DNA of 34,319 nucleotides from an uncultured Mollicutes bacterium (lineage in GTDB: Bacteria > Bacillota_I > Bacilli_A > RF39 > UBA660): assembly GCA_946500425.1 (NCBI GenBank), contig CAMMVQ010000013.1, positions 1-34,319 of the forward strand, in the 5' to 3' direction. The notes beneath the pieces were generated by a model that was not told the DNA's origin, did no database searches, and worked only from the letters and a program-made list of their open reading frames with translations. This document shows, piece after piece, positions 28,036-28,904 of this stretch. The first letter of the stretch is position 1, and the number at the start of each line of letters is the position of its first letter. A program made the translations under genes and the position numbers.

Positions 28036-28112
28036 GGACGCTTAGCTCAGTTGGTTAGAGCACCTGCCTTACAAGCAGGGGGTCATAGGTTCGAGTCCTA
28101 TAGCGTCCACCA
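28036..28112 (+). tRNA. tRNA-Val (UAC)
   Basis: 77 nt with encoded CCA. Acceptor GGACGCT/AGCGTCC; anticodon loop CTTACAA between CCTGC and GCAGG; T arm ATAGG-TTCGAGT-CCTAT. First gene of the operon. Confidence 0.97.
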
Positions 28113-28153
28113 TTTATGCCGAAATAGCTCAACTGGTAGAGCAACTGACTTGT

Positions 28154-28774
28154 GGGATAGAAACTTTAATGTTTTTTTGAACTATCTTGCACCTTGATTA
28201 GGAAACTAATTAAGTGGACGTCGCTAATTCGGGGAACCCTATAGCAAAGGAGATTTATGAATTGCTTAAATTGTTTTAGAGAAGTGCCTGATAATAAAAG
28301 GTATTGTAATAATTTATGTCAAAAAGAATTTGAACATAAACTTTACGTTATCAAATGGAAATTAGGCATTGAAAGCGGTTTAAGAGGTAAGTATCAACTT
28401 TCTAATCACATAAAGAAATACTTGTTTGATAAGTACAATAGTAGATGTGCTTTATGTGGTTGGTCTAAGGAGAATCCTTATACTGAAACAATTCCATTGG
28501 AGATAGAGCACATCGATGGTAACTATCTTAATAATGATGAGGAAAATCTCGTGTTGTTATGTCCAAATTGTCATTCTTTAACTTCTACTTATAAGGGAGC
28601 AAATAAAGGAAAAGGACGAAAGGATAGAAAACAATATAGTTTGTATGGCAATCCCGAGCTAGGTTTAATACCGAGTGTAGAGACTTTATACGATGGACCT
28701 AAGTCACAAAGATATGGTTAAGAGAAAGTCCAGACTACAAACACTTTTGTGGTAGTGAAAGCTATAGTAGTATG
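28154..28774 (+). mobile_element. Group I intron with an HNH endonuclease gene
   Basis: 621 nt, starting GGG after exon U28153 and ending in G28774, as group I introns do. P1 pairs exon and intron 28151-28160 with 28182-28191, with U28153 opposite G28189 (the U-G splice-site pair). A 9-bp hairpin with GAAA tetraloop lies at 28193-28214. P3: CGTCG (28219-28223) / CGATG (28691-28695). P4: TCGGG (28229-28233) / CCCGA (28653-28657). P7: GACTTT (28682-28687) / AAAGTC (28725-28730). P8: GACC (28696-28699) / GGTT (28716-28719). J8/7 is AAGAG. A P9 hairpin follows (CTAC...GTAG). The order P3-P4-P6-P7-P3-P8-P7 is that of a self-splicing group I core. The ORF sits in the P5 side loop. Confidence 0.93.
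28257..28721 (+). CDS. HNH homing endonuclease encoded in the tRNA-Thr intron
   Basis: 154 residues. An N-terminal zinc finger (C3, C6, C17, C21) is followed by the HNH domain: C64-x2-C67, then E-I-E-H85-I-D-G-N, N97 in E-E-N-L-V-L-L, and C102-P-N-C105-H106, with the four cysteines binding a structural zinc. Such enzymes cut the intron-less allele so that repair copies the intron in. AAAGGAG lies 4 bases before the ATG, so it can be translated from the precursor. Residues 133-154 are encoded by the P4-P8 core of the ribozyme and the TAA lies at the P8/J8-7 junction, so the tail sequence is dictated by the RNA fold and the catalytic part is residues 1-130. Confidence 0.92.
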   Translation: MNCLNCFREVPDNKRYCNNLCQKEFEHKLYVIKWKLGIESGLRGKYQLSNHIKKYLFDKYNSRCALCGWSKENPYTETIPLEIEHIDGNYLNNDEENLVLLCPNCHSLTSTYKGANKGKGRKDRKQYSLYGNPELGLIPSVETLYDGPKSQRYG

Positions 28775-28820
28775 AATCAGTAGGTTGCGGGTTCAAGTCC
28801 TGCTTTCGGCACCATAGTAC

Positions 28821-28904
28821 GGGGAGATAGCGAAGTGGTTAAACGCGGCAGACTGTAAATCTGTTCCTTCGGGTTCGGTGGTTCGAATCCACCTCTCCCC
28901 ACCA
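28821..28904 (+). tRNA. tRNA-Tyr (GUA)
   Basis: Class II tRNA with a long variable arm. Acceptor GGGGAGA/TCTCCCC, anticodon loop CTGTAAA, encoded CCA. Confidence 0.97.

Follow-up and report, generated by a model that had tools for sequence, protein, structure and literature searches.

A group I intron encoding an HNH protein in tRNA-Thr(UGU) of an uncultured Mollicutes bacterium, with relatives in gut Bacilli and phages

The split tRNA-Thr(UGU) gene and its insert

The window, by which we mean the whole stretch of 34,319 nucleotides that was analysed, carries a tRNA-Thr(UGU) gene in two parts, with a tRNA-Val gene before it and a tRNA-Tyr gene after it (Table 1). The gene was detected neither by ARAGORN with default settings nor by an Rfam tRNA scan of the window; with introns allowed, ARAGORN called it as tRNA-Thr (tgt) at 28118-28814 with an intron i(37,621). 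Exon 1 ends in CTTGT, exon 2 begins with AATCAG and ends with CCA, and the junction after joining reads CTTGTAATCAG. The joined exons equal an uninterrupted tRNA-Thr at the same cluster locus, over 76 of 76 bases, in 9 of 12 congeners. The exact empty site is found in these 12 genomes, where an intact tRNA-Thr lies in the cluster Val-Thr-Tyr-Gln-Lys-Leu. A congener, L138 (G016), has no tRNA-Tyr between tRNA-Thr and tRNA-Gln, owing to either a deletion or an assembly fault.

Table 1. Features of the split tRNA-Thr(UGU) locus (positions in the window)
Feature	Position	Strand	Basis
tRNA-Val(UAC), heads the cluster Val-Thr-Tyr-Gln-Lys-Leu, within which congeners have the site	28036..28112	+	
5' exon of tRNA-Thr(UGU), from the 5' acceptor strand through anticodon U36	28118..28153	+	ARAGORN with introns; equals 5' part of congeners' intact tRNA-Thr
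Group I intron, 621 nt, GGGATAG...GTATG, between 36 and 37, terminal G	28154..28774	+	Covariation; model R2; congeners' empty sites
P1, exon UGU + intron GGGAUAG (28151-28160) with CUAUCUUGCA (~28184-28193)	28151..28193	+	10 standard pairs
P2 hairpin CUUGAUUAG-GAAA-CUAAUUAAG, GAAA loop	28195..28216	+	Both-side changes in 9/9 pairs
5' strands of P3 (CGUCG), J3/4 (CUAAUU), P4 (CGGGG) and P5	28219..28245	+	Covariation, 23 relatives
HNH endonuclease ORF, 154 aa (154 codons + stop), in the P5 loop	28257..28721	+	Pfam, PHROGs, 16-relative alignment
3' strands of P5 and P4; P6; P7 5' (GACUUU); P3 3' (CGAUG); P8; J8/7; P7 3' (AAAGUC)	28634..28731	+	Covariation, model R2
P9 region: outer stem ACUAC...GUAGU, GAAA-capped P9.2, terminal G	28732..28774	+	P9.2 both-side changes in 4/4 pairs
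3' exon of tRNA-Thr(UGU), A37 to encoded CCA	28775..28814	+	ARAGORN with introns; congener comparison
tRNA-Tyr(GUA), uninterrupted in the window; sister intron in some related genomes	28821..28904	+	

The open reading frame within the insert is preceded, just 5' of its start, by a ribosome-binding-like AAAGGAG. Its product matches the Pfam HNH family at 24.0 bits, only just above the cut-off of 21.4, and phage HNH families (PHROGs) match it at 1.5e-18. Across 16 relatives, residues C64, C67, H85, N97, C102, C105 and H106 are invariant. The predicted structure is confident up to residue ~110, and a structure search of the PDB returned weak HNH-like matches only, none of them significant (best E 6.6e-3), while a plasmid search for relatives of the protein returned a single weak one. 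The 3' part of the frame (28640-28721) runs through P4-P8, one stretch being both coding and catalytic. Most relatives stop near NPELG; the longer tail in the window ends at a stop in J8/7 and apparently arose once the P6 loop had changed in length. The gene lies within the intron, both intron-bearing and empty alleles of tRNA-Thr exist, and the protein is most likely a homing endonuclease. The first-pass annotation had proposed two halves that join as a perfect tRNA-Thr, a 621-nt insert that follows U and ends in G at position 36/37, and an HNH gene inside it; the congeners' 76-nt genes bear out the first, the ARAGORN call and the sequence itself the second, and the Pfam match and the invariant residues the third.

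Fold of the intron and covariance-model scores

The insert folds as a group I intron, and all of the pairings proposed at the outset (P1, P3, P4, P7, P8 and P9) are present. In 23 related introns, 93.5% of the cells of the named structure are paired, a share that drops to 36-41% once the 3' partners are shifted 1-3 columns. Both-side changes occur in 29 of its 49 pairs, and the cells that show them number 188, where shuffling predicts 64; none of 500 shuffles gave so high a count. P2, P3, P4, P6, P8 and P9 are backed by compensatory changes in these introns, with P3 being 100% paired and changed on both sides in 5/5 pairs, P6 in 4/5 and P8 in 4/6. For the pairings proposed at the outset, covariation therefore backs P3, P4, P8 and P9. 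P7 (GACUUU/AAAGUC) pairs in all copies; its invariance stems only from the pattern used to collect them, which fixed both of its strands. The U.G wobble at the 5' splice site in P1 is kept in every listed Thr and Tyr copy, and the P1 of L004 has A-U pairs at the places of the window's G.U pairs. The core sequence may resemble that of cyanobacterial tRNA-Leu introns (group IC3).

The Rfam group I model (Intron_gpI), by which the first-pass annotation had wished to see the intron confirmed, scored 16.4 bits on the window, under its cut-off of 50, probably because the ORF in the P5 loop splits the fold. On the window itself this check fell short; ORF-less relatives reached 41-63 bits, and an independent model, described below, matched the window. 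L080 (63.0 bits) and L024 (59.8 bits) are both over the cut-off, and the two ORF-less introns of L142 are under it, at 41.4 bits for Thr (E 9.7e-8) and 46.6 bits for Tyr (E 2.8e-9). Since Intron_gpI is uninformative on the window alone, we used models made from relatives. Model R2, built from 16 of them with the window left out, scored 103.7 bits on the window's 3' half (E 9e-27) and 20.6 bits on its 5' half.

Relatives in Bacilli, in tRNA-Tyr and in phages

The intron core pattern was found in 2 of 18 genomes of the genus, in 20 of 386 genomes of the family (14 of its 150 genera) and in 35 of 385 genomes in a second, overlapping family sample. A sample of the phylum, searched with model R1 under strict filters, gave matches in the window's family only (2/157 genomes). 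The named relatives are metagenome-assembled genomes (MAGs) that bear the labels Bacilli, Erysipelotrichaceae, Firmicutes or Mycoplasmatota, in keeping with the low-GC Gram-positive host of the first-pass annotation; the isolate names of several point to gut or rumen. Gut Bacilli MAGs (L002-L008) hold the same intron with its HNH gene at the same site. Most copies have an intact ORF; it is broken in L003, L008/G005, L092, L097 and L098, reduced to a relic in L095, and absent from L089, L091, L096, L104, L144, L148 and L151. Relatives with and without the intron at the same tRNA, which the first-pass annotation had suggested seeking, thus both exist, the congeners holding the empty site; intact, broken, relic, ORF-less and empty-site copies together form the pattern expected of a homing cycle. 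The tRNA-Thr intron of L009 (1125-1887) is ORF-less, and an intact HNH gene lies shortly downstream of the tRNA; around the start of this gene, the sequence is similar to that at the point of P5 insertion in phage copies. At some intron loci ARAGORN called Cys, Tyr, SeC or "Stop" tRNAs; these calls look misplaced, and the exons of L012 and L013, joined by hand, form tRNA-Thr.

The neighbouring tRNA-Tyr(GUA) holds a sister intron in several related genomes, inserted after the same UGU triplet. The insertion point is shifted to 35/36 there because the guide pairs with that same UGU. Within G357, and likewise within G438, the 3' core of the Thr intron equals that of the Tyr intron (0 differences), compared with ~20 differences between the two genomes, and the neighbouring introns have therefore been copied or converted locally. 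The tRNA-Tyr introns of L094 and L139 encode a protein of ~125 aa that is PD-(D/E)XK-like by eye. L011 has a similar PD-(D/E)XK-like gene, freestanding, downstream of tRNA genes that include an ORF-less Tyr intron.

Viral contigs carry the same kind of element in their own tRNA genes. Two IMG/VR contigs (L012 and L013) have the same intron with its HNH gene in tRNA-Thr(UGU), and the tRNA-Thr exons of a third viral contig, L042, nearly equal those of the gut Bacilli. In all, 67 viral contigs match the intron pattern, many of them in tRNA-Arg(UCU), Leu(UAA) or Asn(GUU); a 735-kb phage (L154) has its intron in tRNA-Leu(UAA). ORFs near three such introns include a phage-type DNA ligase, a dihydrofolate reductase and an exonuclease. 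These checked ORFs fit a phage origin, which is short of proof for every contig. When the ORF-less introns were compared by blastn with isolated phages, only core or exon matches came up and no full-length relative.

Among the IMG/VR contigs L024-L087 are many near-identical ORF-less introns of ~202 nt (for example L024:683-990) in a cyanophage-like tRNA-Arg(UCU), between U34 and C35, and Synechococcus phage (cyanophage) S-SZBM1 has the intronless allele of this tRNA. Just upstream of the intron-bearing tRNA-Arg of L024, positions 959-995 match the Rfam abiF RNA at 50.8 bits, and a similar hairpin recurs upstream of the same tRNA-Arg in other contigs. In the introns of L030, L031, L038 and L050, a PD-(D/E)XK-like endonuclease replaces the HNH protein and sits in the P6 loop, not in P5; a match to PF11645 was tested on L030 and L031. 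The host tRNA is tRNA-Asn(GUU) where resolved (L030 and L050).

Freestanding relatives of the HNH gene also occur directly at tRNA-Thr(UGU). Enterococcus phage iF6 (MT909815; L111:2380-2964) has an unannotated one 5' of this tRNA, encoding a 55% identical protein. It differs from the gene in the window in that there is no intron and the gene overlaps the tRNA, with its stop codon inside the tRNA 5' part. Another lies directly 5' of tRNA-Thr(UGU) in an Anaerolineae MAG. Such positions, in iF6, the Anaerolineae MAG and L009, suggest, without amounting to proof, that tRNA-Thr(UGU) is the target of this protein family.

Mobility, dependence on splicing and known introns

We consider it very probable that this group I intron, lying between U36 and A37 of tRNA-Thr(UGU), is mobile and is spliced out of the transcript, with the HNH protein driving its homing and phages as plausible carriers. 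The intron RNA would fold after transcription, with the guide GCA pairing to exon UGU and a U.G pair at the cut; a guanosine bound in P7 would then serve a cut after U36, and the joining of U36 to A37 would yield a normal, ACA-reading tRNA-Thr. The HNH protein made from the P5 loop would cut or nick intronless tRNA-Thr(UGU) genes, and repair after cleavage would copy the intron into them. Phages, which have the same intron in their own tRNA-Thr, may have been the carriers in such transfers.

The alternative that deserves most weight, although we think it rather unlikely, is that the intron splices while its HNH protein no longer homes or has another, maturase-like role, the element having spread by recombination of tRNA clusters. 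Intron presence clusters by genus, several copies with broken or missing ORFs keep intact introns and exons, and the identical 3' cores in G357 and G438 point to local copying by some route, all of which such a history would accommodate. On the other hand, the HNH motif and cysteines are intact and conserved in the window, and the freestanding relatives adjoin the same target gene. The existence of ORF-less copies also implies that the protein is not needed for splicing. Our preferred reading of an intron that homes can be extended, on balance but with clearly less assurance, to a single intron lineage that specializes on tRNA anticodon loops and passes between phage tRNA genes and chromosomes. 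Such a lineage would keep the UGU triplet while shifting its host site between Thr 36/37 and Tyr 35/36, and would use interchangeable HNH or PD-(D/E)XK endonucleases, which can also stand free beside the same tRNA target.

Whether the cell can do without splicing turns on the other threonine tRNAs. A scan of the genome found 32 other tRNAs, those for threonine having the anticodons CGU and GGU, and found no uninterrupted or other UGU gene in this 92%-complete MAG. Under standard wobble rules, neither the CGU nor the GGU tRNA-Thr should read ACA. This codon is in use, with 19 occurrences in 1496 codons of three large ORFs. Because the MAG is 92% complete, some room is left for a second UGU gene; the case for a single one is strong but not final. 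Congeners in which tRNA-Thr(UGU) was found have one match per genome. The first-pass annotation had made growth depend on splicing if this were the only UGU gene, a claim that these counts support, and growth probably does depend on the correct self-removal of a mobile element. That the split tRNA is instead a dead pseudogene, with ACA read by another tRNA that the incomplete assembly missed, appears highly improbable: both exons are unmutated and equal the intact genes of congeners, and covariation shows the intron fold to be under selection, in addition to the missing second gene and the use of ACA.

The genome is a metagenome assembly, and one could imagine a chimera in which a phage or other contig was joined into the tRNA cluster. 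An assembly artefact, which the first-pass annotation had named as a possible refutation, is nevertheless very unlikely, and a chimera of this kind hardly credible, since the same insert recurs at the same base position and cluster in many separately assembled genomes, congeners' sites are empty, and the boundaries obey group I splice rules. There is a negligible chance that the insert is a bulge-helix-bulge intron of the archaeal type or belongs to group II: archaeal tRNA introns likewise lie next to the anticodon (PMC8450103), but the size, the ORF, the P1-P9 group I fold with its covariation and the Intron_gpI matches in relatives all speak against it.

Mobile group I introns of tRNA genes are already known; new here, as far as the searched literature goes, are the host tRNAs and the hosts. 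Known tRNA group I introns lie in Leu, fMet, Ile and Arg genes, and the authors of tRNAscan-SE count 36 bacterial genomes with tRNA genes missed for this reason (PMC8450103). Examples include the tRNA-fMet introns of Synechocystis PCC 6803 and Gloeobacter and the tRNA-Leu(UAA) introns of cyanobacteria (PMC8450103, PMC5733544, PMC3984707). These share with ours the group I type and the place in the tRNA anticodon loop, whereas the intron described here lies in tRNA-Thr(UGU) at 36/37 in uncultured Bacilli, has its HNH gene in the P5 loop, and has sisters in tRNA-Tyr and in phage tRNAs. The tRNA-Ile(CAU) introns of Acidovorax, Burkholderia and Azoarcus (PMC8450103, PMC3984707) are likewise anticodon-loop insertions missed by tRNA finders; here the tRNA and the host group are different and an endonuclease gene is present. 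With lengths of 22-49 nt, the "group I introns" reported from tRNA-Arg, Gly and Lys of cyanobacteria (PMC5733544) seem too small to serve as precedents. Introns in phage protein genes (PMC3984707; Jug phages, PMC12363816) have the same association with HNH or PD-(D/E)XK endonucleases, and the window intron has relatives on phage contigs; however, the described phage introns are in protein genes and these relatives are in tRNA genes. According to a 2014 review, every phage intron seen up to then lay in a protein gene, despite the many tRNA genes of phages (PMC3984707), and our search of the open-licence full-text literature turned up no later account of introns in phage tRNAs. Nor did the open-licence literature that was searched mention the Thr and Tyr sites, Bacilli as hosts or the tRNA relatives in phages. 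The claim of a new host gene and site therefore holds insofar as the searched literature has no report of a tRNA-Thr host, and must be narrowed in that other genomes have the element too, members of its family occurring in phages and in the tRNA-Tyr of related genomes.

Several consequences follow for the biology of this family. Standard tRNA finders overlook such split genes, and a genome may therefore seem to have no tRNA-Thr(UGU) or tRNA-Tyr. Because one bacterial family shows every homing stage and phages have copies at the same site, the ways in which tRNA introns are gained, decay and are transferred by phages can be put to direct test. For various uncultured gut bacteria, an essential step of decoding would depend on a parasite's removal of itself.
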